DNA from: Pontiella desulfatans
Lineage (GTDB): Bacteria; Verrucomicrobiota; Kiritimatiellia; Kiritimatiellales; Pontiellaceae
Direction: 5' to 3'
Length of the DNA stretch: 64,000 nt
NCBI RefSeq assembly: GCF_900890425.1
Contig: NZ_CAAHFG010000005.1
Location: forward strand, 1 to 64,000
Shown: positions 1,865 to 15,335 of the stretch, in pieces
Position numbering within the stretch: position 1 is the stretch's first letter
How the letters are laid out: each line of letters starts with the position of its first letter
Made by a program: the position numbers and the translations under genes
The notes under the pieces: model-generated
Seen by the model: only the letters and a program-made list of their open reading frames with translations
What the model was told of the DNA's origin: nothing
Databases searched by the model: none

Positions 1865-1912
1865 TGGCGAGAGTGACGGGACTCGAACCCGCAACCTCCA
1901 GCGTGACAGGCT
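1865..1912 (-). other. Displaced 3' half of tRNA-Asp (attachment site, left end of element)
   Basis: Read on the minus strand this is the anticodon-to-CCA part of a tRNA-Asp. It matches the complete tRNA at 15,259-15,335 with four mismatches; the last 22 bases (1,891-1,912, core ACCTCCAGCGTGACAGG) are identical. Beyond 1,912 the similarity stops abruptly. This is the standard product of integrase-mediated insertion into a tRNA 3' end: the element supplied a replacement half to the functional gene and left the original half here. Confidence 0.88.
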
Positions 1913-1954
1913 AGTCGCGAATCGGTAAAAACTGGGGAAATAATTGCAAAATAT

Positions 1955-1977
1955 AAAAATGTTCCCGGAATGTTCCC
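1955..1977. repeat. 23-bp repeat, candidate integrase arm site (left)
   Basis: Identical to 15,118-15,140 and in the same orientation. It contains two direct ATGTTCCC units separated by GGA. Location just inside each att core, 42 bases from this one, suits an integrase or excisionase arm-binding site; binding is inferred. Confidence 0.65.
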
Positions 1978-2010
1978 AAAAACAGCTTGTTTTGCCCTGC
2001 CAATTATCCT

Positions 2011-2037
2011 ATTTATTCTGACGTTATCAGAATAAAT
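2011..2037. promoter_or_regulatory. Palindrome upstream of integrase, candidate operator
   Basis: ATTTATTCTGA and its perfect complement TCAGAATAAAT flank the spacer CGTTA. It ends two bases before the AGGAGG ribosome binding site of the integrase at 2,052, so a protein bound here would block the promoter or early elongation. Candidate binders are the HTH proteins of the element, including the HTH inserted in the integrase itself. Confidence 0.6.
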
Positions 2038-2051
2038 CAGGAGGCTGTAAA

Positions 2052-3620
2052 ATGGGCTTGGCGATTAAGAAAAATTCGGCGTGGTGGTATGGCCGCTACA
2101 TGATCGATGGCAAAGAGCATTTCACCAACCTGCAAGTCAGGATCAGGGGAAGTCGTCCGGTCAAATTGAGCGAGACGGGAAGCGTCCAGTTTGAGAATTC
2201 ACGCGGGGAGGCGCAGGGGGCACTTGATAAGCTGCTGGAAAACATTCAGGCGGGGCGTAGTGAGGCGAAGTTGGCGGAAGCGGTCTATGAGGCGCGTTCG
2301 GGCGAAAAGCTCAAGCGGTACACCATCAGCGACCTTCCCCAAATCTGGATCGACAAGCCCCGCCAGCGGAAGCCGTCGGAGCGGCATTCCAAACAGACAG
2401 TGGCCAAGCTGGAACGGTTCGGCTCGTTCCTGGCATCCGCCTATCCGGAACTCTCCCGTATTGACCAGTTGCGCCCGATGCATGTACAGGCCTTTCTTGA
2501 ACAGCTGGGACGGCGGGGCGTCACCTCCGAGACCTGGAATAAATACCTGGTGGCTATCAAGGCGGTATTGAAACGGGCAGGGGTTCCTGCTGCCCGTGAA
2601 ATCCTATCGAAGGAAACCGAGACCGTTTCCCGGCAACCGTTTTCGATTGATGAACTACAGGCCATCTTCGAAGCGGCAAGGGAATCCGATCCGCTAATCT
2701 ATTCGCTGGCCGTAACTGCCGCCTGTACCGCCATGCGGCAAAAGGACTGCTGTTATCTCCGGTGGGATGATGTTGACCTAGGCGCGGGGTTCATCAGCGT
2801 TAAAACCAGCAAGACGGGGCAGGAAGTGGATATTCCGCTTGCTGATGTGCTGAGGGATGAAATCAAGGGGCAGGTGGGCAACGGGGCGGAATACGTCTTT
2901 CCGGATGCGGCCAAGCTGTATACGGCGAACCGTAGCGGGATTTCCTCCCGGTTCAAGCGGGTGCTGAAGGTTGCCGGATTCGATACGGGAAGCCCTCGGC
3001 CTCCCGTTGAATGCAAATCCGATCCGTGTAAGCCTGGGGAACTGCACCGGGCGGCAAGCAAACTGTTCAAAGGCGATAAGCTGGAACGCGCCAAAGCGGT
3101 GGTTGATGTTTATATGGCAGGGAACGGGGTAAGGCCGACCGCCAAGGAAACCGGCTTGAGCGTTAGCACGGTCTCGCTTTATCTCAACGAACTGGAGGCC
3201 GCAACCGGAAAGGCGATCATCCGGGGCAAGCGCCGCCCTGTCGATCCCGCCAAGCTTCCGACGCGGGGAGCCATGGCCAAGGAGCGGGAACGCGGATTGC
3301 TCAAAGCCTCGCTAAGGGATTTCCATTCCTTCCGCACCACCTTCGTAACCCTCGCTCTGATGCGTGGCATGCCGCTGGACATTGTTCGGAAGATCACCGG
3401 CCACAAAACTGCCGACGTGGTTATGAAGCACTATTTCCGCCCGCAACGCGAACAGCTCCGCGCCGCCATGCAAAGCACCATGCCCGGCCTGTTGACCAGC
3501 GGGGCGAAGCCCACCGATCCGGCGGCCCGCGCCGCCGATCTACTACGCACGGCCAAGGCCGACAACTGGCAAGCGGTCATTGATGAAGCCCTTGGGGTTC
3601 TGGAGTCTAGTGATCATTGA
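2052..3620 (+). CDS. int: Tyrosine integrase with an internal helix-turn-helix insertion
   Basis: Phage-family integrase of 522 residues that should carry out tRNA-Asp integration. Catalytic residues seen are Arg229 (CTAMRQKDCC), His425 and Arg428 (DFHSFRTT), His451 (TGHKT) and Tyr461 (KHYFRP). Between residues about 312 and 421, where the paralogue at 406-1,707 has about 20 residues, it has a ~110-residue insertion. The insertion contains a plausible helix-turn-helix (about 361-382, TAKETGLSVSTVSLYLNELE). The start is firm: AGGAGG lies 7 bases upstream. The gene sits next to the left att site and points into the element. The inserted HTH may add regulatory or accessory DNA binding; that is inference. 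Confidence 0.93.
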   Translation: MGLAIKKNSAWWYGRYMIDGKEHFTNLQVRIRGSRPVKLSETGSVQFENSRGEAQGALDKLLENIQAGRSEAKLAEAVYEARSGEKLKRYTISDLPQIWIDKPRQRKPSERHSKQTVAKLERFGSFLASAYPELSRIDQLRPMHVQAFLEQLGRRGVTSETWNKYLVAIKAVLKRAGVPAAREILSKETETVSRQPFSIDELQAIFEAARESDPLIYSLAVTAACTAMRQKDCCYLRWDDVDLGAGFISVKTSKTGQEVDIPLADVLRDEIKGQVGNGAEYVFPDAAKLYTANRSGISSRFKRVLKVAGFDTGSPRPPVECKSDPCKPGELHRAASKLFKGDKLERAKAVVDVYMAGNGVRPTAKETGLSVSTVSLYLNELEAATGKAIIRGKRRPVDPAKLPTRGAMAKERERGLLKASLRDFHSFRTTFVTLALMRGMPLDIVRKITGHKTADVVMKHYFRPQREQLRAAMQSTMPGLLTSGAKPTDPAARAADLLRTAKADNWQAVIDEALGVLESSDH

Positions 3621-3735
3621 ACAAATAGATTCTTTTGTTTGGGTATTTTTTAGGCCTCAGTGCAGTAAAATAAACCCGTACAAATTGAACGTTTATTCTT
3701 GGCAGGATTCTAAAAGATCAAATATAAACAAACGC

Positions 3736-4104
3736 ATGAGTGGAAAGAAATCGGGGAAAAGTCAAGGAAAGGTTACATGGGCACAGGCGTTCAGAGATAT
3801 AGTAATTGCCTCAATGAACAAGGGTCAGCTCCCGGTGTTGGCCGTCTTTATGCTTATTGGATTGCTTATATGGAAGCTTCCGGAAACTGAGGTTCTAAAG
3901 CTGTGGGGGGTTCTTATTGACAAGTTGTCGAACGGAGAGCTACTTTCATACCCCCTTTTAGGTTTTGTAACATTAGGGTGGTTCTACCACTCCAGACGGC
4001 AACGGCGGCACTTTCTTGCGGAATATGAAAGGATCGCTACCGAGAAGTCTGAGTTGCAAGAAAAACTGACTGGAACTAAATTGAAATCGAGCAGTAACTC
4101 ATGA
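3736..4104 (+). CDS. Small two-helix membrane protein, unknown function
   Basis: I do not recognise this 122-residue protein. After a basic N-terminus (MSGKKSGKSQGK) there are two hydrophobic segments, about residues 33-48 and 70-86, then a basic, probably cytoplasmic, Lys/Glu-rich tail that could form a short coiled coil. I start at ATG 3,736; an in-frame upstream ATG overlaps the integrase and would add a non-conserved-looking stretch. The stop overlaps the next gene by ATGA, so the two are probably translated together. The pair is visibly AT-richer than its neighbours, which suggests separate acquisition. Position beside the integrase is where satellites often carry defence or exclusion cargo. 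Confidence 0.65.
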   Translation: MSGKKSGKSQGKVTWAQAFRDIVIASMNKGQLPVLAVFMLIGLLIWKLPETEVLKLWGVLIDKLSNGELLSYPLLGFVTLGWFYHSRRQRRHFLAEYERIATEKSELQEKLTGTKLKSSSNS

Positions 4105-4625
4105 TGGCAAATTTCATTATATTTTTCTCATTCATTGCGCTCTTGCATTTTTTATACGAAGGAATTCTTCTTCCTTTGGTTCATATGCGTTTAAGAAATA
4201 AGTTCTTTAAGCTGCGTGATGAATTGCGTCGGGAGCGGATTGATAATCCAAAGGAATGCAAACTTGAAGTATTCTCATATCTGGATGATGGCATTGGAAG
4301 GTTTATAAATAATCTACCTCATTTGACGCCATCGGCACAGGCTCGCGCCTACAGCGAACTTGGCTCAAATAAAGAACTCAGGAAGGCCACCGAAAAGCGG
4401 CTAGATATGATTCAGAGTTCAGAGTCTGAGCAGGCAAAAAAAATCTTCCGAGAAGTTAACTCGGCTGTAGAAATGGCACTTATTGCAAATGTAGGTATCT
4501 GGTTTATATACTTGGTTCCTATTGCGTTGCTATGTCTGTGCTTCTCGAGGTTGGCTCAATTGGCTAAGGATCTGGTCGCTATGCCACCTAAAAGCGCTGA
4601 TCAGGTTTTGCAACACGCATATTAA
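4101..4625 (+). CDS. Membrane protein with N- and C-terminal helices, unknown function
   Basis: Unrecognised 174-residue protein. A hydrophobic segment spans about residues 4-26. A long polar middle (about 30-125) is rich in Arg, Lys and Glu and probably helical. A second hydrophobic segment lies near residues 128-152 (LIANVGIWFIYLVPIALLC). It starts within the stop of the preceding membrane protein (ATGA at 4,101-4,104), which indicates a translationally coupled two-component membrane module. AT-rich like its partner. Function could be superinfection exclusion, a pore or effector pair, or something unrelated; nothing in the sequence decides. Confidence 0.68.
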   Translation: MMANFIIFFSFIALLHFLYEGILLPLVHMRLRNKFFKLRDELRRERIDNPKECKLEVFSYLDDGIGRFINNLPHLTPSAQARAYSELGSNKELRKATEKRLDMIQSSESEQAKKIFREVNSAVEMALIANVGIWFIYLVPIALLCLCFSRLAQLAKDLVAMPPKSADQVLQHAY

Positions 4626-4838
4626 CCTTCCGCCGCTTTGGGCTTGGATTGGGGTAGCTGGCGGGTTACACCTTTTTTGAATTAGCTGGCCGGGTGGTTG
4701 GCGCGGGATTAGAGCCCCGTTTAAAACAATAAACAGAAATCCAATGAACTTTTGCCGTCCAACTTTGTGTGGAGCCCTCTTCTGTTGGGCTCGCTCTAAC
4801 GCATGAGGTTGGGCGGCTCTTTTGTTGGGAAATAGACA

Positions 4839-5009
4839 ATGGAAACAATAGTATCGGCAAAGAAAAACGAAATCGTTATCCGGGGTAAACTGGCAAAGCA
4901 ACTTGAGGAAATATGCCCGGAAGGAATGGGCGTAGAGGCATTCACAGAACAATTTATTAAGAATGCAATCGAGCACCGCAACCTTGTCGTAGAGATATTG
5001 GCCGCTTGA
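4839..5009 (+). CDS. 56-residue ribbon-helix-helix-like protein
   Basis: Short gene. The segment LEEICPEGMGVEAFTEQFIKNAIEHRN resembles residues of the next gene (LCPDGMDADEFLSMFAEKAIAH) so the two are paralogous in this part. The pattern, a short strand followed by two helices, looks like a ribbon-helix-helix DNA-binding or dimerisation unit; that is a structural guess. The ribosome binding site is weak (GGGAAA). A hairpin at 4,772-4,792 (GAGCCC and GGGCTC) lies upstream in the otherwise empty 4,626-4,838 gap. A terminator follows at 5,019. The gene is probably a stand-alone regulator of the element. Confidence 0.6.
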   Translation: METIVSAKKNEIVIRGKLAKQLEEICPEGMGVEAFTEQFIKNAIEHRNLVVEILAA

Positions 5010-5018
5010 TGAAACAAT

Positions 5019-5060
5019 ACGGGCAGCCTGTCTTCTCAGGGAGGGTGCGGCCCGTTTTGT
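5019..5060 (+). terminator. Rho-independent terminator
   Basis: ACGGGC (5,019-5,024) pairs with GCCCGT (5,050-5,055) around a 25-base loop that itself contains a small hairpin, followed by TTTTGTCTTT. It ends the transcription unit of the 56-residue gene. Confidence 0.6.
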
Positions 5061-5162
5061 CTTTACCGGCATTGCTCCTGACTCAACCTTGGTAGGCGTT
5101 CATGATTCATTAAGCTCAGCGAGAGCTGGCATAATCCGCCAACGTGAACAGGAGAAAATGCA

Positions 5163-5567
5163 ATGAAACCGGAAGCACGTTCAGCGGTTCAGGTAGATAG
5201 CGATTTGGTCACACGGATTCGGGCGTTATGCCCAGATGGGATGGACGCGGATGAATTTCTTTCCATGTTCGCGGAAAAGGCCATTGCGCATAATCTGGAT
5301 ACGCTGGGCATGCTTCCGCCGGATGCGGTTGCCCGGCATCTTTCCGGCAACCGCATCCAGCCACCACACTTGATGGAACGCGATGAAGTTGCCGATTGGT
5401 GCAACGTAAACTGGCCAGACCGAAAGAAGCCAATTACCGCTGAGTCGGTGAGAACATGGGAGCGTAAGGGATGGATTAAGCCGCATCCGTATTACACCCG
5501 TCCTGCCCGATATCCGGTCGAAGAAATTCTTGCCTTCGTAAATGCAAAATTCAAATCTCCTTTCTAA
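5163..5567 (+). CDS. Small DNA-binding protein, RHH-like N-terminus and HTH C-terminus
   Basis: 134 residues. The first ~45 residues resemble the 56-residue protein encoded at 4,839-5,009. The C-terminal half (about 68-134; ERDEVADWCNVNWPDRKKPI followed by SVRTWERKGWIKP) has the layout of a MerR/excisionase-type winged helix-turn-helix: a recognition helix then a turn ending in basic and aromatic residues. It starts with AGGAGAAAATGCA just upstream. The next gene begins 12 bases after its stop. It is likely an excisionase or regulator of the element; specific targets are unknown. Confidence 0.7.
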   Translation: MKPEARSAVQVDSDLVTRIRALCPDGMDADEFLSMFAEKAIAHNLDTLGMLPPDAVARHLSGNRIQPPHLMERDEVADWCNVNWPDRKKPITAESVRTWERKGWIKPHPYYTRPARYPVEEILAFVNAKFKSPF

Positions 5568-5579
5568 CCGGATTGCACA

Positions 5580-6104
5580 ATGCGAATTGATAAAGTCCAG
5601 ATGATGTTGCCCGATGGGGATGAGCTTTTGCCGCCGAAAGAATTGGCGGATAAAATACACTGCACTCCCCGTTTGATATCGGCTATGCGCCGGGACGGGT
5701 TTCTTATGCCTGCTGGTCTGGCAACTGCCAACTGGGCGCTTGAATGGCTTTCGATAAACCCCGAATTTCGACAAAATAAACCTATGGATGGAGTTGCTAA
5801 TTCAATAGCAGACTATCGGATCACTGACGGGGATGAACTTCTTGACTCTAAAGGTATTGCCGCAAGGTTTGGGCGGAATACGGGCTATGTCTATGCAATG
5901 AAGCGCGATGGCTTCCTGATGCCTGGTAGGCGTGCCACCCTCAATCATGCACTGGCCTGGCTGGCAGCCAATCCGGACTTTCGCGTAAACCGTGCAGAAT
6001 CGACTAATCCTGATCCATCGATTAAGCGGAACCATAACCAAACCGACATTACCGAATTCTATACCGATGGAATCCCTGTCCGGGGTGAAATAAAATCGGA
6101 TTAG
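5580..6104 (+). CDS. Tandem-duplicated helix-turn-helix protein
   Basis: 174 residues made of two copies of one ~52-residue module. The first begins GDELLPPKELADKIHCTPRL and the second GDELLDSKGIAARFGRN. Both continue with the landmark (A)MxRDGFLMP, then LEWLSINPEFR or LAWLAANPDFR. Each copy has the look of an HTH with a trailing helix, so one chain could bind two half-sites without dimerising. A polar tail of ~35 residues follows. The start codon lacks a strong ribosome binding site, but the gene follows its neighbour by 12 bases. I do not recognise a named family. It is probably a DNA-binding regulator of the element. Confidence 0.68.
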   Translation: MRIDKVQMMLPDGDELLPPKELADKIHCTPRLISAMRRDGFLMPAGLATANWALEWLSINPEFRQNKPMDGVANSIADYRITDGDELLDSKGIAARFGRNTGYVYAMKRDGFLMPGRRATLNHALAWLAANPDFRVNRAESTNPDPSIKRNHNQTDITEFYTDGIPVRGEIKSD

Positions 6105-6220
6105 TTCGATAGCACCAGCATAGACCCGTATGGTCATATTTGGGGTGTTTTGTGCCCTACCCCTTCTGGCGTATTTTGTCGCTTAATGAGTCCTGTTGAA
6201 ACTAACAGGGAGCATAAGCG

Positions 6221-6454
6221 ATGAAAACAACCTCCATGGAACATGTAGCCGCAAACGCCAGTAGCGGTGATTCCAATTCTACAACGGAAAATCTTCTTAC
6301 TGCCGATGAATTTGCAGCGCGTTACGGATGCAGCGCTCGCACCGTTCAGCGTTGGTGTCGCGAGGGAATCCTTCAACCCGTTCGGATTGGACGCCTTGTC
6401 CGCATTCCATCCAGCCAACTTTTTTCCGGCGGAATAACTGGGGGTGGGAAATGA
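6221..6454 (+). CDS. Excisionase-family HTH protein
   Basis: 77 residues. The region LLTADEFAARYGCSARTVQR then WCREGILQPVRIGRLVRIP is a clear HTH_17/MerR-like excisionase domain: helix-turn-helix followed by the basic wing that reads 'R-IGR-VRIP'. The ~25 residues before it are polar and low in complexity. The start is supported by GGGAG 8 bases upstream. It is the first gene of a run in which every junction to 14,356 is overlapping or closely spaced, and it overlaps the next gene by ATGA. Roles could be directional control of the integrase or activation of the replication and tail-tip genes. Confidence 0.8.
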   Translation: MKTTSMEHVAANASSGDSNSTTENLLTADEFAARYGCSARTVQRWCREGILQPVRIGRLVRIPSSQLFSGGITGGGK

Positions 6455-6696
6455 GAACGCCTTTAAACCAACTGGTTATCATCAAGGGCAATCTCCAGCT
6501 TATTACTCGTTTGGATGGAGTCCGCGCCGCTTTCAAATTATTAGGAAAAATGAGGCTCCCATTTGCCCGGCGGCAAAACAGTATTTTCCATCAAATCACA
6601 ACAGCCCCTGGAGATAAGTTTTTCAGCAAATTCGGGAAAGGTGGGAGCGCCGAGAAATGGGGTAAGCCCAACAACGAAAAACGGAGGACGGATTAA
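6451..6696 (+). CDS. Small basic protein translationally coupled to the tail-tip gene
   Basis: Unrecognised 81-residue protein, strongly basic (many Lys and Arg, little acid), no membrane segment. It begins in the stop of the excisionase-like gene (ATGA) behind GGGTGGGAA, and its stop overlaps the start of the tail-tip gene as TAATG at 6,694-6,698. The double coupling argues that it is real and expressed together with the tail-tip gene. It might be a tail-assembly partner or a nucleic-acid binder; no motif decides between them. Confidence 0.62.
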   Translation: MRTPLNQLVIIKGNLQLITRLDGVRAAFKLLGKMRLPFARRQNSIFHQITTAPGDKFFSKFGKGGSAEKWGKPNNEKRRTD

Positions 6697-7102
6697 TGCC
6701 CGCAATAGCCGCCGTCGCCGCCGTCTGGGGAGCCATTGGAACCGGCTTTGGTGTTAGTGTCACCGTTGGTGTTATGCTTCAGCAAGCCATCATTGCCGTT
6801 GGTATCGCCGCGATCACCCGCGCCCTGGGTGACCACTTTGCCGATGACCAGGCGCAGGATTACGGCGCAAAGGTCAACACCACCTCGAATACTGCCCCGG
6901 TCGTTGTTTTCTATGGTGAGCGCGTCGTGGGCGGTTGTGAGTACCGCGCCGCCTCCGGCCTTGAAAACGAATACCTCCACCGCGTGCTTGTGCTGGGCGA
7001 GGGCGAAATGGAAAGCGTTGAAAACATCTATTTCAACGACAAGGATATTGCCACCTACAAGGATTCCGACGGCAACCTGGTCTATGATGGCCTTGTTCGT
7101 TC

Positions 7103-8194
7103 CATGCCTATCCGATTGACACAGGTTGGTGTTTTTGGCACACCCTAACGCATGTCGAATTACCCTCGAACCCTGTTGGAGTTTCAACATCGCTTTCCTG
7201 ATGAGTCATCCTGCTTGCACCATCTGGAGCATGTCAGGTGGCCAGCGGGTTTCGAATGCCCGTCCTGTGGAAACGTCGGTGACCCTTGGCGACTTCGAGC
7301 CAGACCCCGCGTGCTGGAATGTAGGCAATGCGGGAATCAGGCCAGCCTCACAGCAGGAACAATTATGCACCGAACACAACTCCCCCTGACGATTTGGTTT
7401 TGGGCTGCCTACCTGGTGACGACGCAGACCCCGGGTATGAGTGCTCTGCAATTCCAGCGGCAGCTCGGTATCAAACGTTACGAAACTGCGTTTCTGATTC
7501 TGCACAAGTTGCGCATGGCTATGGTTCGGCCAGAGCGAGACCGAATTGGTTCCAAGTGGCCCGTTGAGGTGGATGAGACGTTCGTCGGTGGCACAACCCA
7601 AGGGGAGGGCCGGGGACGGCATCACAAAACACTTGTTGTTGGTATGGTGGAAGTTATGCCTCGCAAGAAGGCTCTGGGGCCTGATCCGAACCTGACAACA
7701 GGGCAGAGTCCACAGCATCAGGGAGGACATGGACGGAGTTTTATTGCGGGAAGGTTGCGGCTTCAGGTTGTTCCCAACCGAAAGCAGGAAACGCTGGAGC
7801 CGATCCTTGTGACCAACGTCCAGAAGAAAGCCGAAGTACGAACCGACGGATGGACGGGCTATGACAACTTGCATGGATTGGGGTACAAACACATCGCCGT
7901 GCCCATCAGAGGGGATCAGGCCAAAACGGACCAGCATCTTCCGATGATTCACATTGTATTCGGAAATCTTGATGCCTGGCTTCTGGGAACACACCACGGC
8001 GTGAGTTCGGCGCACTTGCAGGGCTATCTCAACGAATTCGTATTCCGGTTCAATCGCCGATTCTGGCCCATGGTAGGCTTCGAGAGTGTGCTGAAAATTG
8101 CGGTCCAGGTGGAGTCTCCGACTGTGCAAAACTTTTATAAAGCCGCAAGGGAATCGAAAGATTCGACCTAGCCTGTGTTAATCGGATAGGCAGG
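7103..8194 (+). mobile_element. Complete IS1595-type insertion sequence
   Basis: 1,092 bp. The ends are inverted repeats: CATGCCTATCCGATTGACA at the left, and CCTGCCTATCCGATTAACA read inward from the right. It is flanked by the perfect 8-bp duplication GTTCGTTC (7,095-7,102 and 8,195-8,202), the length known for the IS1595 family. One transposase gene fills it. Intact ends and duplication suggest a young, possibly active copy. Confidence 0.93.
7152..8171 (+). CDS. IS1595-family (ISXO2-like) transposase
   Basis: 339 residues. An N-terminal zinc ribbon (CPSCG at about 36-40 and CRQCG at about 57-61) precedes the ISXO2-like catalytic domain. Likely catalytic residues are Asp141 (VEVDETFVGG), Asp232 (RTDGWTGY) and, towards the end, Asn272 or the His281-His282 region together with Glu295; the exact last ligand is uncertain from sequence alone. 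No frameshift or internal stop is seen, and the gene lies entirely between the IS ends, so it should be functional. It runs in the same direction as the tail-tip gene it interrupts. Confidence 0.92.
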   Translation: MSNYPRTLLEFQHRFPDESSCLHHLEHVRWPAGFECPSCGNVGDPWRLRARPRVLECRQCGNQASLTAGTIMHRTQLPLTIWFWAAYLVTTQTPGMSALQFQRQLGIKRYETAFLILHKLRMAMVRPERDRIGSKWPVEVDETFVGGTTQGEGRGRHHKTLVVGMVEVMPRKKALGPDPNLTTGQSPQHQGGHGRSFIAGRLRLQVVPNRKQETLEPILVTNVQKKAEVRTDGWTGYDNLHGLGYKHIAVPIRGDQAKTDQHLPMIHIVFGNLDAWLLGTHHGVSSAHLQGYLNEFVFRFNRRFWPMVGFESVLKIAVQVESPTVQNFYKAARESKDST

Positions 8195-10515
8195 GTTCGT
8201 TCAACCTTCCATTCCGGCACCGATGGCCAGGCCGCCGACCTCGATCTGGTTACGGAGCTGGACGACTGGGGGCCGGATCATCGCGGCTTCGGCGTCGCCT
8301 ACCTCTATATCCGTACCGAGTGGGACAAGGATGCCTTTCCCTCCGGCATGCCGACCATTACCGTCAAGGCCCGTGGCCTCAAGGTCTACGACCCGCGCGA
8401 CGGATCCACGGCCTGGAGCGACAACCCCGCCCTTTGCCTCCGCGATTTCCTCACCAATACCCGCTATGGCGCGGCCATACCCGAAACCGCAATCGACGAC
8501 GATTCCTTTTCCGAGTCCGCCAACTACTGCGATGAACTCGTTACCTTTAAAAATTCCGACGGCGTCGAATACCAAGCCAAGCGCTACACCTGCAACGGTG
8601 TCCTTAATCCCGACGACGGCGCACTCGAAAACACCAAGCGCATCCTTTCAGCGTTCCGCGGAATCCCGGTTTTCTCCGGCGGAAAATGGCGGCTGGTGGT
8701 CGATAAGCCCGACGTGGCCGACTTCGAATTTACCGAGGAAAACATCATTGGAAGCTGGAGCTTTTCCGGTAGCTCCAAGCGATCAATCGTCAACCAGGTT
8801 CGCGCACGCTTCTACGATGCCGCCCTCGATTCCGAGGATACCATGACCGTCGTTTCCGTCGGCGACTACATCGAAGAAGACGGCCAGATTTTCGAGCAGG
8901 ATGTCTATTACCCACTCACCAACGATCTAACCCGCGCCAACATCCTCGCCCAGCACTACCTGAAGCAGGCCCGCCAAGGGCTCGCCGTCTCCCTCTCCGC
9001 AACCCTCGAAGCCTTGGCCCTCGACGTTGGCGACGTGGTTTCAATCACCCACCCGACGCCGGGTTGGGAAGCCAAGCCGTTCCGTGTTCAAAAACTGGAG
9101 CTGGAGGCCGCCGATAAAATCCGCGTCACCCTCTCCGAATATGACGACTCGGTTTACACCTTCGATGTCCTCACGCCGCCCGCGATCCCCGATACCAACC
9201 TGCCCGATCCATTCAGCAGCCCGCCGCCTTCCGGCCTGACGCTCGAAAGCGGAACCGAACATTTGCAGGTTACCGCCAGCGGCACCGTGATTACCCGCAT
9301 GCTCGCCCAATGGGCCGCCGCGCCGTCAACCTTTGTGGATACCTACGAAGTGGCCTACAAGCTTTCCGCCGCCTCCGGCTGGACATCCTTCGAAACCTCC
9401 GAACGCCAGCACTATTTCACCCCGGTTTCCGATGGCCACGCCTACGATGTCCGCGTTCGCGCCGTCTATTACAATGGCCGCCGTTCCAGCTGGATCGAGG
9501 TTTCAAATTATATGGTCGTCGGCAAAACCGAACCGCCCGCCGCGCCAACCTCCTTCTCCTTCGCCTCCCAGCGCGACTACACCCGCGAATTTTCCTGGAC
9601 GCTCAACACAGCCGATCCCGATGTCGCCGGGTATCAAATCCGCTTTTCAACCACTCTGACCGACGAATGGGACGCCATGACGCCCATGCACCTGGGCCTC
9701 TTGGTGTCCAGCCCATGGGAAACCAATATTCTCAACGCCGGAACCTACCGCTTCGCCATCAAGACCGTCGATACCACCGGCAACGAATCCGCCACCGCAA
9801 AATATATCACCGCAACCCTGGAGGAATCCCCGGCAAGCAACATCCTCCTGGCCCGCTATCCGCGCCTGGAGGGCTGGCCCGGCACCATCACGAACGGCTA
9901 CGTGCTGCCAAACTCAAACGACATCGAATCAACCGATTCCACCACCTGGGATGACCTCGAAGTCGATGCCGCCAGCTGGGACGCCTGGTTGTTGTGGGGG
10001 ATCGATGGCGACGACCTCACCTATCAATATTCCGACATCGACCTGGGCCTGGTCTTAACCTTCCGCCCGATGCTTTCCGCGCAGGCCGACGGCGCGATTG
10101 TCTACGAAATCAACCACTCGCAGGATAACGCCACCTGGAGCGGATGGATTACGCCAACCGCCGAAATCGATGCCAGATACATCAAGGTTCGGATCACCGT
10201 AACGGGCGAAGCGCCCCGCATCCAATCAATGACCATCCTGCTTTCCGGCCAAAAAATAACCGAAGATATTTCCGACCTCGACACCTCGACCCTGTCGGCA
10301 ACCTATCGCACCGTTGCCGGGGATATCCGCCTGCCCATCAAAACCACCTTCGCCACCATCAAATCCGTACAGGTGGCCTTGCAAAATACCGGCGCGGGCT
10401 GGTCGTGGGAATTGATCGACAAGCAAACCACCACCGGCCCACGAATCAAGATTTACGACAACACCGGCACCCTCGCCGATGCCACCATCGACGCAACCAT
10501 TAAAGGATATTAGCC

Positions 10516-10812
10516 ATGGAATCTAAAATTCCTGAGAGCACGTTGTCCATGGCCGTAGGCATGCTGATGCCCTACCGGCCCGATCTAACGCCGGAACGGT
10601 TGCTGGCGGCCATCGACTTTGAGCCGGAGACCGAAGTCGTCGAGAGCCTCTACACCGTTCCGGAAGCGGCCAAGGCATTGAGTCTTTCTGTTCCGACGAT
10701 CAACCGCATGATGCGAGACGGGCAGTTGCCGAAACGGAAGATTCGCGGTGCTGTCCGGGTTCCTCGCTCTGCAATCGCCGATATTTTGGCAGGGAAGGAA
10801 GCGGCGGCATGA
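10516..10812 (+). CDS. Excisionase-family HTH protein
   Basis: 98 residues. The C-terminal part (about 48-95) is an HTH_17 excisionase domain: YTVPEAAKALSLSVPTINRM, then RDGQLPKRKIRGAVRVPRSA and a final helix. The N-terminal ~40 residues (MLMPYRPDLTPERLLAAIDF) are helical and may be an extra interaction segment. It begins 2 bases after the stop of the tail-tip gene, so it is in the same transcript. Its stop overlaps the tiny frame at 10,809. Having excisionase-type regulators on both sides of the tail-tip gene indicates that the gene is embedded in the element's own regulon. Confidence 0.8.
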   Translation: MESKIPESTLSMAVGMLMPYRPDLTPERLLAAIDFEPETEVVESLYTVPEAAKALSLSVPTINRMMRDGQLPKRKIRGAVRVPRSAIADILAGKEAAA

Positions 10813-10841
10813 GTGAAACGAAAAAGAAAGTTGCCCTCTAA
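10809..10841 (+). other. Ten-residue frame with a possible read-through extension
   Basis: ATGA overlap with the preceding stop opens MSETKKKVAL followed by TAA. Past that stop the same frame runs 22 more codons and ends in a TGA that overlaps the ATG of the next gene at 10,903. It may be a small gene broken by one ochre codon or simply a translational link. I cannot tell whether it is expressed. Confidence 0.25.
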
Positions 10842-10902
10842 AACAATCCGCTGGCGAATGCCGATCAACTTGACCCAATGGAGCAAAAAGGAAAACACAA
10901 AC

Positions 10903-11595
10903 ATGAGTGATAAAGCCGCCATCTCTAAATCCGAGTTGCAAGATGTTCTTCGGGGGATGCTTGCCGTCGTGAGCAAATATCAAAGCCGAAAAATCCTGGA
11001 TATGGATAAAATCGGAACAATGGATGAAGACTCGTTAAAGACAGAAATCAAGCGAGTGCTGAACATGGGTTGTGGCTTATATCTTGACACACGACAGGCC
11101 GTTAATTCGCTGCCTATTAAATTCGCGGAAAACTACGCGGGGAAGGCGTTGCTGGATTACGGCCTAGTTGACTCCGTGTTCTTTAATTCGGTACGAGGGG
11201 AATACTGGGTTCGCGGTGGTCGTGGGAGCTGGATCATGTGTGATCGTCGCGATCTTGAAACCTATCTCATCGGCAGAGGTGTTCCTGTGGAACCGCTCTC
11301 GGAGTTCGGCGGGCGCAATCTGGTTGAGATGATTGCTTTTTGGCTGGCCTATGATTCCAGAGAGGAGCCTCCGGTTGATCCTGATCTGTTGATAATGGCT
11401 TGTGGCAACTGCCAGTCGTTTTGCGAAGGAGGAGAGGGGGTAGTTGATGGTTATTGCCGACGAGTCGCGCCCGTTGCATGGCTCAAAGACGAATCAGGTA
11501 TTGGGGGCGAATCCAAAGACCTTGACAAGGCGGCAATATGGCCAGTTGTTGAATGTGATCATTATTGCGGCCAGTTTTCACCAAAGAAAATCTAA
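10903..11595 (+). CDS. Cys-rich putative metal-binding protein of the element
   Basis: 230 residues, no named family recognised. The C-terminus holds six cysteines: Cys167, Cys170 and Cys174 (CGNCQSFC), Cys185 (GYCRR), then Cys218 and Cys222 (CDHYCGQF). The spacing with the conserved-looking CRR, IWP and CGQF motifs resembles a metal-binding module of phage and environmental proteins. Around residues 80-112 it reads GKALLDYGLVDSVFF then GEYWVRGGRGSWI, similar to the N-terminus of the helicase at 12,863 (AALLEKHGLANRFYF, GSYWHRTADGEWI). I start at ATG 10,903 rather than an upstream in-frame start because it follows AAAGGA and a plausible overlap. It probably serves in element replication. Confidence 0.7.
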   Translation: MSDKAAISKSELQDVLRGMLAVVSKYQSRKILDMDKIGTMDEDSLKTEIKRVLNMGCGLYLDTRQAVNSLPIKFAENYAGKALLDYGLVDSVFFNSVRGEYWVRGGRGSWIMCDRRDLETYLIGRGVPVEPLSEFGGRNLVEMIAFWLAYDSREEPPVDPDLLIMACGNCQSFCEGGEGVVDGYCRRVAPVAWLKDESGIGGESKDLDKAAIWPVVECDHYCGQFSPKKI

Positions 11596-11598
11596 CTG

Positions 11599-12870
11599 AT
11601 GGATAATCAGTTACAAGTTGCCTTTGAAACCGTCTCCATCTGCAAGCTGGCGGAAGGGCTGGGTATTGAGGGATTGCGGGAAGGCGCCGGGCAAAAGAAC
11701 CCTTTCCGGCAGGATCGGAAGGCGGGTTCGTTTTCGGTGCAGCGGGACTATTTCAAAGACCATGCGCATGAGGATCATAAAGGCGGGCACATAGCTTTTG
11801 TTCAGCTTGCCCGCCCTGGGTGGAGCAAAAAGGAGTGCATCGAATTCATTATCCGTACGGCAGGCATGGAGCCGGAAAAACAGTCTGCTGGACGGGTCAA
11901 GGCCGTGGTGCAACAGAAGCGGCACAAGCTCTATAGGGCTCAACGGGAAAAGGCCGAACAACTGCCAAGCCTCTGCATGACCGAGCCGGGGCCGTGGTCG
12001 GTTCCTGTGCGCGAACGGTGGACGGATGGGCACGAACACCTCTTGGCGGTTGCGGACAAGCTGGCGGAATCACGGGGCTGGAAAACGAACGTGCTGTGGA
12101 AGCTGGCCGGGTTGGGAAAAACCTCCCTTCCGCTTTTGCCTTGGAGCGATGCCAAGGGCAACAAACGCGGCTGGGGCTGGTTGGTGGAAAAGCCGGTCAT
12201 GAACCCGCGTTCCGCTGGCCGTGCCTTGGAGCTGGTTCCGGTCGGCTACCATACGCGCTATAAGGTTTTCCCGAAGGATGCACCGCCGGAAAAGCGATGG
12301 GTTTACACGCCCTATGTTCCGGCCACCACCAACCCGCAAACCGGGCAGCCTAAACGCCTGTCCGATTTCCAGCAGCATCTACTGGCCATGAAAGGCAAGC
12401 TGCCCGCCTATCCGTTTGTCCTGGGCAATCTGGATAATCCCCGGCTGGTGGTTGTGCTGGAAGGGCAGTTCGATGCCGCGTCGTTCGCCCTGGCCTTTGG
12501 GTGGCTGGAGCATGGATTTCCGCCCGGTGTGTCGGTTGTTGGCTTGCGCGGGGTGCAGTCGCAATCCGTCTTTCTTTCCGCCTATGGTATGTGGCTGCGG
12601 AAAAATAAGCCCTTCGTTTGGATCATTGGCGACAACGACGACGCGGGGCGGCTGCTGGACAAACGCGATGCGTCTAACGCCATCGATGTGGAACCTACGT
12701 TCCTCGACCGGTTGCGGGCGCAGGGCTGCACCGTCCGCGCCGAACTGATCGGCTATGAAGGTGCAAAGGATTTTAACGATGTATGGCGGATGGCTCCGCC
12801 ATCGGTTTCGACCATGAACAAATGGGCGGCGCATGTTGGCGTTCCCCTGGAGGTGCTGGGAAATGAGTGA
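11599..12870 (+). CDS. TOPRIM DNA primase
   Basis: 423 residues. It should prime DNA synthesis for the element. The C-terminal TOPRIM domain is clear: Glu288 in VVVLEGQFDA and the acidic cluster Asp345, Asp347 and Asp348 in IIGDNDDAG. The N-terminus (about 30-90: NPFRQDRKAGSFSV, FKDHAHEDHKGGHIAFVQLA, then a helix) has the shape of the CHC2 zinc-binding domain of DnaG-type primases, but the usual cysteines are missing, so metal binding there is doubtful. It begins 3 bases after the Cys-rich gene and overlaps the helicase gene by 8 bases. The separate primase and helicase are the counterpart of P4 alpha, where both activities are in one chain. Confidence 0.85.
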   Translation: MDNQLQVAFETVSICKLAEGLGIEGLREGAGQKNPFRQDRKAGSFSVQRDYFKDHAHEDHKGGHIAFVQLARPGWSKKECIEFIIRTAGMEPEKQSAGRVKAVVQQKRHKLYRAQREKAEQLPSLCMTEPGPWSVPVRERWTDGHEHLLAVADKLAESRGWKTNVLWKLAGLGKTSLPLLPWSDAKGNKRGWGWLVEKPVMNPRSAGRALELVPVGYHTRYKVFPKDAPPEKRWVYTPYVPATTNPQTGQPKRLSDFQQHLLAMKGKLPAYPFVLGNLDNPRLVVVLEGQFDAASFALAFGWLEHGFPPGVSVVGLRGVQSQSVFLSAYGMWLRKNKPFVWIIGDNDDAGRLLDKRDASNAIDVEPTFLDRLRAQGCTVRAELIGYEGAKDFNDVWRMAPPSVSTMNKWAAHVGVPLEVLGNE

Positions 12871-14356
12871 CACACCCGCAAAGGAATTCGATCCAACCCA
12901 AAACGTGGACTTGGGAAACAATCCGGTCGAAGCCAAGAAAAAGGAAGGCGCTGCCCTGCTCGAAAAACACGGCCTTGCCAACCGCTTCTATTTCGATCCG
13001 GGGAACCGGGGTTCCTATTGGCACCGTACGGCGGATGGTGAGTGGATCGGCGAACCATCCCGCGAATTCGAGGAAATGCTCTGCGATGTCTACAACATTT
13101 CGACGGGCCGGAACGACAAAGACCAGAGCGGCGCGCGGCTGTCTGAATCAAAGCAGGTTGCCCGCTACGTCAAGAGCTATTGCCGTGTGGACTATGTTGG
13201 CCGCTTGGCCGGCCAAGTGGCCGGTTTCCAGAAAAATAATTCCCAGCGGGTGTTGGTCACGCATACCGCCGACATCATGCAACCCGATCCGGAGCAGGCC
13301 TGCCCCACATTGCTGGAACTGTTTGAAAACATCTTTGGTGACCGGGACGGTGAGCAATTGAACCAAATCGAACACTTCTTTGCCTGGTGGCAGCATGCCC
13401 TGAAAGTCCTGCATTCGCGCCGTGGAGGCAATGGCCAGAACGGGCTGGCCATCGTGTTGGCTGGCGGCACCGGATGCGGCAAGACGCTAACCACAAAGCT
13501 TATCCGCGAAACCTTTGGCGGGCGCGAATGCAAGCCGTTTAGTTTTATGATCGGGCTGGAGCGGTTCAACAAGGAATGCAAGGAGTCGGAAGCTTGGATC
13601 ATCGATGATGAACAGAGCGCCATCGATGCCAAGAGCCGGTCCGCGTTTTCCGCCAGCATCAAGGCCGTGGTGGCCGATCCGGCCTACCGTGTCCGTGCCA
13701 TCCAGAAAGATGGGGAAGTCCTGGAGTTTTTCCGCCGCTTGGTCATCTGCACCAATCTGGAGGATGATCGGCTCCAGTCGCTGCCATCGATCAAGAATGA
13801 CATTGCCGATAAGATCAGCCTTTTCCTGTGCCACTCGAAACCGATGCCTATGTCCGCGGACACCAAGGAAGAGCAAGACCTGTTTAGGGATACGCTCTTT
13901 GAAGAGTTGCCGGGGTTCGTGAATTGGCTGTTGAACGTCTGGGAGCCGAAAGACAAGAGCGTCCTGGGGGGTCGTTTCGGTGTCCGCCATTACCACCACC
14001 CCGATTTATGCCGCGACCTGTTCGAGGTGTCCAAGGATCAAATCCTATGGGATCACATACAGAAAGTGCTGTTCCGCTCGGATGATGAGTTTGCCAACTG
14101 GTGGTGGGATGGATCGACAACCAAGCTACGCGAGCTGCTGGTGTCCGATGAGTCGCCACTCTCCAAGGCCGAACGGGGCTATGTCCCGCAATCCAACCAT
14201 CTTGGCCGCTCCATCTCCACCATTTCCAATCAGTTCCCGGAACAGCTTTGGAAACATCAGGTGGAAGGCAAAGACCGCTGGCTGATCGTGAAGCCGGGCA
14301 AGACCGTGGCTGAATACCGCGAGCTTCAGAACGTGAACCGGTCATACAAAACCTAA
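12863..14356 (+). CDS. SF3-like replicative helicase of the element
   Basis: 497 residues, starting at ATG 12,863 inside the primase stop. Walker A is GGTGCGKT (residues 201-208) and Walker B is AWIIDDEQS (about 244-252). The surrounding pattern, with FSFMIGLERFNKE between them and RRLVICTNLEDD after, matches the P4-like/DUF5906 superfamily 3 helicases of phages and satellites. Such enzymes unwind at the origin as hexamers and usually partner with a primase, here the preceding gene. The N-terminal ~80 residues share a short motif with the Cys-rich protein at 10,903. It is the last gene of the operon; a large palindrome that could be the origin follows 100 bases later. Confidence 0.87.
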   Translation: MSDTPAKEFDPTQNVDLGNNPVEAKKKEGAALLEKHGLANRFYFDPGNRGSYWHRTADGEWIGEPSREFEEMLCDVYNISTGRNDKDQSGARLSESKQVARYVKSYCRVDYVGRLAGQVAGFQKNNSQRVLVTHTADIMQPDPEQACPTLLELFENIFGDRDGEQLNQIEHFFAWWQHALKVLHSRRGGNGQNGLAIVLAGGTGCGKTLTTKLIRETFGGRECKPFSFMIGLERFNKECKESEAWIIDDEQSAIDAKSRSAFSASIKAVVADPAYRVRAIQKDGEVLEFFRRLVICTNLEDDRLQSLPSIKNDIADKISLFLCHSKPMPMSADTKEEQDLFRDTLFEELPGFVNWLLNVWEPKDKSVLGGRFGVRHYHHPDLCRDLFEVSKDQILWDHIQKVLFRSDDEFANWWWDGSTTKLRELLVSDESPLSKAERGYVPQSNHLGRSISTISNQFPEQLWKHQVEGKDRWLIVKPGKTVAEYRELQNVNRSYKT

Positions 14357-14461
14357 GCTGCCACACCCTCCAGCCAAGCCCCGCCATGTGGTTCCGTTTT
14401 GTTTAACGGGAGCCGCACCCCTGCTATTCATGGATGCAATTTGCCGGATTGGTGTCCAATT

Positions 14462-14620
14462 AGAAGGGGGTAAAGCTAGTAAAGCTAGTATATTCATACA
14501 TTACATACGCGCACACACGCGCTATATATGGACGCGCGCGGGCGCGGTATTAGATGCGCGCGCATGCGTATGTGTATGGAGTATTCGTTTTTACCGGCTT
14601 TACTACCTTTACCCCCTTTT
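14462..14620. other. 159-bp imperfect palindrome, candidate replication origin
   Basis: The outer arms 14,462-14,485 and 14,597-14,620 are inverted copies with about three mismatches (GGGGGTAAAGCTAGTAAAGC against GGGGGTAAAGGTAGTAAAGC). The left arm also carries a tandem GTAAAGCTA repeat. Inside, ATACATTACATACGCGC and GCGCATGCGTATGTGTAT are a second inverted pair, and the centre is an alternating purine-pyrimidine tract. It follows the helicase gene, as replication origins often do in such elements. The remaining non-coding stretch to the tRNA (14,621-15,258) holds the hairpins listed below and no gene I can support. Confidence 0.55.
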
Positions 14621-14824
14621 CGGGATCGGCTGCACGTCTTGCCCTGGAGCTGGCCAGACTGATCCAGATGTTTTAGGTTCTGTGAGAGCTATTGAACGGG
14701 GGTAATTCGCGAGCTCGTTGTTTCTTTACGTGTTGATCAGTTCTACCTTCTCAACGTTTTCGTTTAACCCGACCCGTTGAATTTGTTAACCGGGCGTTCA
14801 ATTAAAGCTGGCCAAGCGAGCGCG

Positions 14825-14859
14825 AAACCGCATCGCCATTCAAACGGGGGCGCGGTTTT
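14825..14859 (+). terminator. Possible terminator of the replication operon
   Basis: AAACCGC pairs with GCGGTTT around a 20-base loop and is followed by a short TTTTC run. The loop is long and the T-run short, so it is weak evidence, but it is the only terminator-like structure after the helicase gene. Confidence 0.4.
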
Positions 14860-15067
14860 CTATATGGGTGCTTGGTAGTTCGTCCGTCGGCTGCGCCTGA
14901 AGCTGTCGGCATGCGGACAAGGGGCGCGGATTTCCTCTGCTGTGCATCGCCCATTCCAATCCGCTCCAATGCCCGCCCACAATTCCGCCAAGCCCAACCC
15001 GCCGCAATTCCGGCGGTTGCCGGGGCTGTCTGGAAATCTTCCGCCCGGATCGGCTCCATCTTCATGC

Positions 15068-15103
15068 GCGTGACGTTTTCAGCTGTGCGAAAAAACGTCA
15101 CGC
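15068..15103. promoter_or_regulatory. Perfect 12-bp-arm hairpin near the right att site
   Basis: GCGTGACGTTTT and AAAACGTCACGC are perfect inverted repeats around a 12-base loop, 15 bases before the 23-bp repeat shared with the left end. It may be a binding site in the integration/excision complex or a structure in the circular form. Confidence 0.5.
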
Positions 15104-15117
15104 TTGGGGGGCTCTGG

Positions 15118-15140
15118 AAAAATGTTCCCGGAATGTTCCC
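15118..15140. repeat. 23-bp repeat, candidate integrase arm site (right)
   Basis: Identical and parallel to 1,955-1,977, with the double ATGTTCCC unit. It lies 145 bases inside the right att core (15,285-15,306). Confidence 0.65.
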
Positions 15141-15220
15141 GACCCAAGGCGGTTTTATTCTAGCTTTATCCAGTTGTATCAAAATCCGCCCAAAAGAAGC
15201 GGATTGCAATTACAGCCAAT

Positions 15221-15253
15221 AAAAAAGGGGCTTTCGCATAATACGAAAGCCCC
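15221..15253 (-). terminator. Terminator of tRNA-Asp, supplied by the element
   Basis: On the minus strand a 10-bp perfect stem (GGGGCTTTCG with CGAAAGCCCC) and a 7-base loop are followed by six T, starting six bases past the tRNA CCA end. Confidence 0.88.
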
Positions 15254-15258
15254 TAAAA

Positions 15259-15335
15259 TGGCGAGGATGACGAGACTCGAACTCGCAACCTCCAGCGTGA
15301 CAGGCTGGCGCTCTAACCGATTGAGCTACACCCCC
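15259..15335 (-). tRNA. tRNA-Asp(GTC)
   Basis: Read on the minus strand: acceptor GGGGGTG pairs with CATCCTC, D-arm AGCTCAATCGGTTAGAGCG, anticodon loop CTGTCAC giving GTC (Asp), T-arm with GTTCGAGTC, discriminator G and encoded CCA. The 3' half from the anticodon stem belongs to the integrated element and rebuilds a functional tRNA. It is the integration target; the att core is 15,285-15,306. Confidence 0.95.

Follow-up and report, generated by a model that had tools for sequence, protein, structure and literature searches.

What a long imperfect palindrome does directly behind the last replication gene of a mobile element is the question raised by a locus of Pontiella desulfatans. The locus lies within positions 1 to 64,000 of contig NZ_CAAHFG010000005.1, and this whole 64,000-nucleotide stretch is referred to here as the window. 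The palindrome is located in an integrative element of about 13.4 kb at tRNA-Asp, within a stretch free of recognised genes that extends from the helicase gene to the element's right end. An earlier note on this DNA had proposed from its position that it is the replication origin of the element. This proposal is supported by the layout found in relatives of the helicase, by the tracking of the iterons with the C-terminal domain of the helicase, and by the match to published replicons of Staphylococcus aureus pathogenicity islands (SaPIs) and phage-inducible chromosomal islands (PICIs).

Inverted iterons around an alternating spacer

The imperfect palindrome described in the earlier note is real, consisting of two arms of 59 nt (14464–14522 and 14560–14618) that are 73% complementary around one centre and lie 37 nt apart. 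Its dyad score of 27 ranks first in the window, far above the scores of shuffled sequences (at most 18 in 20 Markov shuffles of the whole window and at most 14 in 500 shuffles of the local 300 bp), and the 159 nt fold at a lower energy than any of 200 dinucleotide shuffles (DNA z -5.1, RNA z -6.4). The repeats had been described as nested; the inner arms, ACATACGC (14503–14510) and GCGTATGT (14566–14573), match at 100% and are near to the letters given then, while the outer part is now refined to inverted iteron arrays of about 28 bp per arm. The tandem 9-bp repeat reported in the left arm was found as TAAAGCTAG at 14471–14488, and the right-arm iterons are the inverse of the left ones (GTAAAGGTA, GTAAAGCCG, and GTAAAAACG). 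No further copy of the palindrome was found elsewhere in the 8.66-Mb host genome.

The spacer between the iteron clusters is 113 bp long and holds the most purine/pyrimidine-alternating stretch of the window, where 86% of the steps over 14488–14576 alternate, compared with 49% on average across the window (sd 5.8%). The window's two longest runs of alternation also fall here (25 nt at 14554–14578 and 21 nt at 14502–14522). In the nearest-neighbour profile, the CG-rich middle of the palindrome is thermodynamically stable, while the least stable 25-mer of the intergenic region, at the 0.06 percentile of the window, lies at the left iterons, bordering on the spacer and partly within it. The centre had been called prone to Z-DNA; this holds as a property of the sequence, and several origins share the alternation, whereas the spacer of most relatives is simply AT-rich. 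Judged by its letters, the alternating centre may absorb superhelical stress as Z-DNA or may act only as a spacer.

Layout, iterons, and helicase domain in related replicons

Queries with the single helicase or primase protein returned no close relative in the genome, viral, or phage collections, and family-alignment searches were needed to retrieve the enlarged set of helicase relatives, whose 46 genome-collection members are 23–34% identical and belong mostly to Verrucomicrobiota/Lentisphaerae. A search for iterons as 8-mers with one mismatch allowed did not discriminate and gave way to a paired-dimer score, which counts two 6-mers 8–10 bp apart together with the same two inverted within 170 bp (maximum 24) in a region that begins 60 bp ahead of the helicase stop codon and extends to 300 bp past it. 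The putative Pontiella origin scores 24/24 with a period of 9 and inverted GTAAAG dimers, and no other scored window of the locus equals it. Among the 12 first-set relatives that have the shorter helicase form, 10 score at least 22, a value that no other window of the respective locus attains. In the enlarged set, 28 of the 46 genome-collection loci (seven of which repeat first-set loci) and 5 of the 30 viral loci (which include near-duplicates) score at least 23, compared with one of 2009 other windows in the tested loci. The enrichment among the genome loci has a Fisher p of 5e-50, computed over loci that are not phylogenetically independent. The enlarged set is the cleaner test because the dimer test was shaped after the sequences of the first 13 loci had been viewed. 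The control windows contain coding DNA, so the contrast between coding and non-coding DNA may explain part of the difference; it is unlikely to be the main cause because Markov shuffles of the same stretches, made for the first set only, seldom attain high scores. The earlier note had held that the absence of the palindrome from close relatives keeping the primase and helicase would refute an origin; inverted dimers were found in those 28 of 46.

The left dimer of the relatives begins at a median of 1.5 bp past the stop codon, and in many of them the iteron array overlaps it; the putative Pontiella origin starts 108 bp past the stop codon of its helicase gene. The continuous stem is not kept in the relatives but the short outer iterons are, so that the palindrome is better called two inverted iteron clusters around a spacer. 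Since the iteron letters vary by lineage (GTGGAG, TGAAGG, ATGACG, TGAACA, and others), it is the layout and not the sequence that is conserved; the GTAAAG pattern itself gave no match in 57 kin genomes. The spacers of the relatives are AT-rich in 22 of 28 (p<0.05), and an alternating spacer, found in only 3 of 28, was rejected as a rule for this helicase family. As a separate observation, a branch with a 700-aa helicase, found in Pontiella and related genomes, carries a series of imperfect palindromes of ~70–150 bp at 0.7–4 kb downstream (L041, L042, L056, L061, and L062), some of them common to several loci, such as CGCCTTTGCGTTCC...CCACGCAAATTCGGC in L041 and L042.

The iterons covary with the C-terminal domain of the helicase. 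The more alike this domain is between two of 31 replicons, the more alike are their iterons (rho 0.53), and the partial rho is 0.46 after removal of the ATPase domain, with none of 2000 permutations as high; ATPase similarity adds nothing once the C-terminal domain is given (-0.06). Such covariation is expected if that domain reads the iterons. The structure model of the helicase (mean pLDDT, the predicted local distance difference test, 86.8) resembles the C-terminal region of NrS-1 (Z 19.1), the SaPI5 primase-helicase (Z 15.5 over residues 144–481, covering most of the C-terminal part), and PriRep1 with double-stranded DNA (Z 12.7). The model is predicted to end in a winged helix at about residues 429–486, in the order helix-helix-helix-strand-strand. 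The helicase gave no match to TIGR01613 (P4-family primase), and its relatives gave 16–23 bits against a cut-off of 108.7.

The iteron array was also searched for without any protein, as GTAAAGNNNGTAAAG-(90 to 120)-CTTTACNNNCTTTAC. This GTAAAG array pattern matched eight viral contigs, whereas a control equal to it in composition and symmetry gave no match. The viral matches adjoin the 3' end of VapE/PriCT_2/DUF5906 or Toprim/PriCT_2/DUF5906 primase-helicase genes, and the array at L148 adjoins a 674-aa remnant of such a gene. In five of six viral loci examined, the alternation of the locus is strongest within the spacer, mostly as (CA/TG)n; four of the five are near relatives of each other. 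In the VapE/PriCT_2-type family, 27 of 62 non-redundant loci have inverted iterons scoring at least 23, and significant alternation downstream of the gene occurs in 27 of the 62, with about three expected. The alternating centre recurs in some replicon lineages and is not part of the general design. It is conceivable but doubtful that satellites and phages share a recurrent class of origins, arisen in at least two helicase families, in which a Z-DNA-forming alternating centre between inverted iterons replaces the AT-rich stretch as a superhelicity sensor or melting aid. In the library searched, the literature held nothing joining Z-DNA, origin of replication, and iterons.

A probable origin of replication weighed against other functions

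The anatomy, the conservation of the layout, the covariation of the iterons with the C-terminal domain, and the predicted fold are established by computation. The palindrome is very probably the replication origin of the tRNA-Asp element, with an arrangement like the rep-ori (replication gene and origin) modules of SaPIs and PICIs, because its anatomy matches those published replicons. The helicase from the adjacent upstream gene would bind the two inverted GTAAAGCTA iteron clusters through its C-terminal winged helix and would assemble as two hexamers of opposite orientation. The DNA would then open, with the weak TA-rich stretch adjoining the left iterons as the likeliest place, and the helicase would load itself while the neighbouring primase would lay primers on the excised circle.

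Several points weigh against this interpretation. The spacer is 50% AT, unlike the published PICI rule of an AT-rich spacer, and the element's GC skew does not switch at the palindrome. Scores below 22 were obtained for 13 of the 46 genome-collection and 21 of the 30 viral relatives, whose arrays may have diverged or be absent. The primase is weakly assigned (phrog_47, 3.2e-4); an open reading frame related to it stands upstream of the helicase in L096.

An autoregulatory operator or terminator would be no origin but would end or repress the operon when bound by the helicase or the helix-turn-helix protein, as might be suggested by the palindrome directly following the last gene and by the strong folding expected of its RNA (z -6.4). 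Terminator prediction, however, called no terminator-like site at the palindrome and no Rfam family matched; the overlap of the array with the stop codon in many relatives, the retention of short iterons in place of a continuous stem, and the tracking of the helicase domain by the iterons render such a function improbable. Another site of recombination or transfer, namely, one for cruciform resolution, a single-strand recombination site, or a transfer origin, is highly unlikely: the att site of the element lies elsewhere, at tRNA-Asp, no relaxase was found among the open reading frames searched with Pfam and PHROGs, and tandem 8–9-bp iterons fit an initiator-bound site better, even though such sites are typically large imperfect dyads and more large palindromes stand 0.7–4 kb downstream in some relatives. 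An artefact of chance or low complexity, by which alternating CG/CA/TA letters are self-complementary by composition, as in the inner arms, is scarcely credible and was ruled out by the conservation of the layout in relatives, given also that the outer iterons are non-alternating and unequalled at 24/24 in the locus, that shuffles fail to reach the dyad score, and that the outer iterons have eight viral matches to none for the control.

The element that this putative origin would serve (Table 1) is bounded by a 48-bp direct repeat of the 3' half of tRNA-Asp, 91.7% identical between the two copies. Integrase, att, and replication genes are present. The element also carries a tail-fibre J gene (phrog_31; 6696–10513), which is not among the hallmarks of PICIs and is interrupted by an IS1595-family transposase gene (7152–8171). 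No recognised head gene was found among the open reading frames searched, and a tail fibre as the sole structural gene of a satellite-like element would be unusual. A second tyrosine integrase gene lies on the opposite strand immediately outside attL (406–1752) and may belong to a second element that adjoins the same att site and is truncated by the end of the contig. Two integrases with 66% and 54% identity to the one of the element were observed at G000:C1:3417276 and C1:1559387 (L243–L246), each with an adjoining excisionase-like helix-turn-helix gene; the stretches fetched around them gave no helicase match, and these loci are possible sister elements carrying other cargo.

Table 1. Positions in the window of the integrative element, its genes, and the parts of the putative origin.
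Feature	Position	Strand	Evidence or remark
Integrative element, about 13.4 kb, between two att copies at tRNA-Asp	1865..15306	.	48-bp direct repeat + integrase
attL, copy of tRNA-Asp 3' half	1865..1912	.	
23-bp perfect repeat near attL (ATGTTCCCG motif), probable integrase arm site	1955..1977	.	role inferred
Tyrosine integrase, just inside attL	2052..3620	+	PF00589 3.8e-17, phrog_1 4.9e-44
HTH_17 / excisionase-like DNA-binding protein	10516..10812	+	PF12728 2.1e-12, phrog_66 1.9e-09
260-aa protein in replication operon, no family match	10813..11595	+	Pfam, PHROGs, TIGR01613 searches
Probable DnaG-like primase	11599..12870	+	Toprim motifs EGQFD, DNDDAG read from sequence; phrog_47 DNA primase
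D5/SF3-type helicase, predicted initiator	12833..14356	+	PF19263 2.3e-8
Putative replication origin, inverted iteron arrays around spacer	14462..14620	.	dyad, shuffle, and iteron tests
Left iterons, GTAAAGCTA at 14470 and 14479, degenerate third copy GTATATTCA at 14488	14470..14496	+	
Least stable 25-mer of intergenic region, candidate strand-opening site	14479..14503	.	nearest-neighbour profile; role inferred
Alternating purine/pyrimidine centre, Z-DNA-prone by sequence	14488..14576	.	
Right iterons, inverted, GTAAAG 14612–14607 and 14603–14598, GTAAAA 14594–14589	14589..14612	-	
Second copy of 23-bp repeat, near attR, probable integrase arm site	15118..15140	.	role inferred
attR, inside intact tRNA-Asp (15259–15335)	15259..15306	-	

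Known replicons of similar design

With this locus, a mobile element of a phylum that has received little study gains a candidate origin open to testing, and a simple rule for finding the origins of this replicon class is suggested, namely, an inverted pair of 8–9-bp iteron dimers at the 3' end of the helicase gene. The covariation of iterons and domain offers many natural pairs from which DNA recognition by winged-helix initiators could be learned, and the alternating centres pose a question that can be addressed on plasmids.

The closest design is the rep-ori of SaPIbov1, SaPI5, and EcCICFT073, where the origin likewise comes directly after a primase and a self-loading helicase and consists of a spacer with an iteron set on either side (PMC6092414, PMC7581432). 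In SaPI replicons, the C-terminal domain of the initiator helicase recognises iterons directly downstream of its own gene (PMC7581432), and an AT-rich region with an iteron set on each side is a constant feature of PICI origins, which support the replication of plasmids (PMC6092414). The predicted fold of the Pontiella helicase matches that of SaPI5, including most of the C-terminal domain. The departures from the published rule are the alternating spacer of mixed composition, half AT where the published ones are AT-rich, and the host lineage, Kiritimatiellota; the Pontiella element also has its own iteron sequence and a separate, probable DnaG-like primase, and no helper phage is known for it. 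In SCCmec (staphylococcal cassette chromosome mec), the D5-family helicase Cch2 similarly uses its C-terminal domain to bind short direct repeats located 3' of the gene that encodes it (PMC7581432), whereas the Pontiella element has two inverted iteron clusters.

The alpha protein and ori of phage P4 are comparable as the iteron-binding primase-helicase system of a satellite, from which the Pontiella helicase differs in lacking the TIGR01613 match. P4 requires ori plus the distant crr. At the 3' end of the helicase gene of L050, the GTGAACAGA-like iterons TGAACACCATGAACA / CGAACAGAGTGAACA resemble the type I iterons of P4. The VapE/PriCT_2 viral replicons (L147, L149, and L214) belong to another helicase family, to which the profile of the Pontiella helicase family gives no match, and have an AT-richer spacer, but they share the inverted iteron layout, in some cases the GTAAAG core, and often a (CA/TG)n or (TA)n centre.
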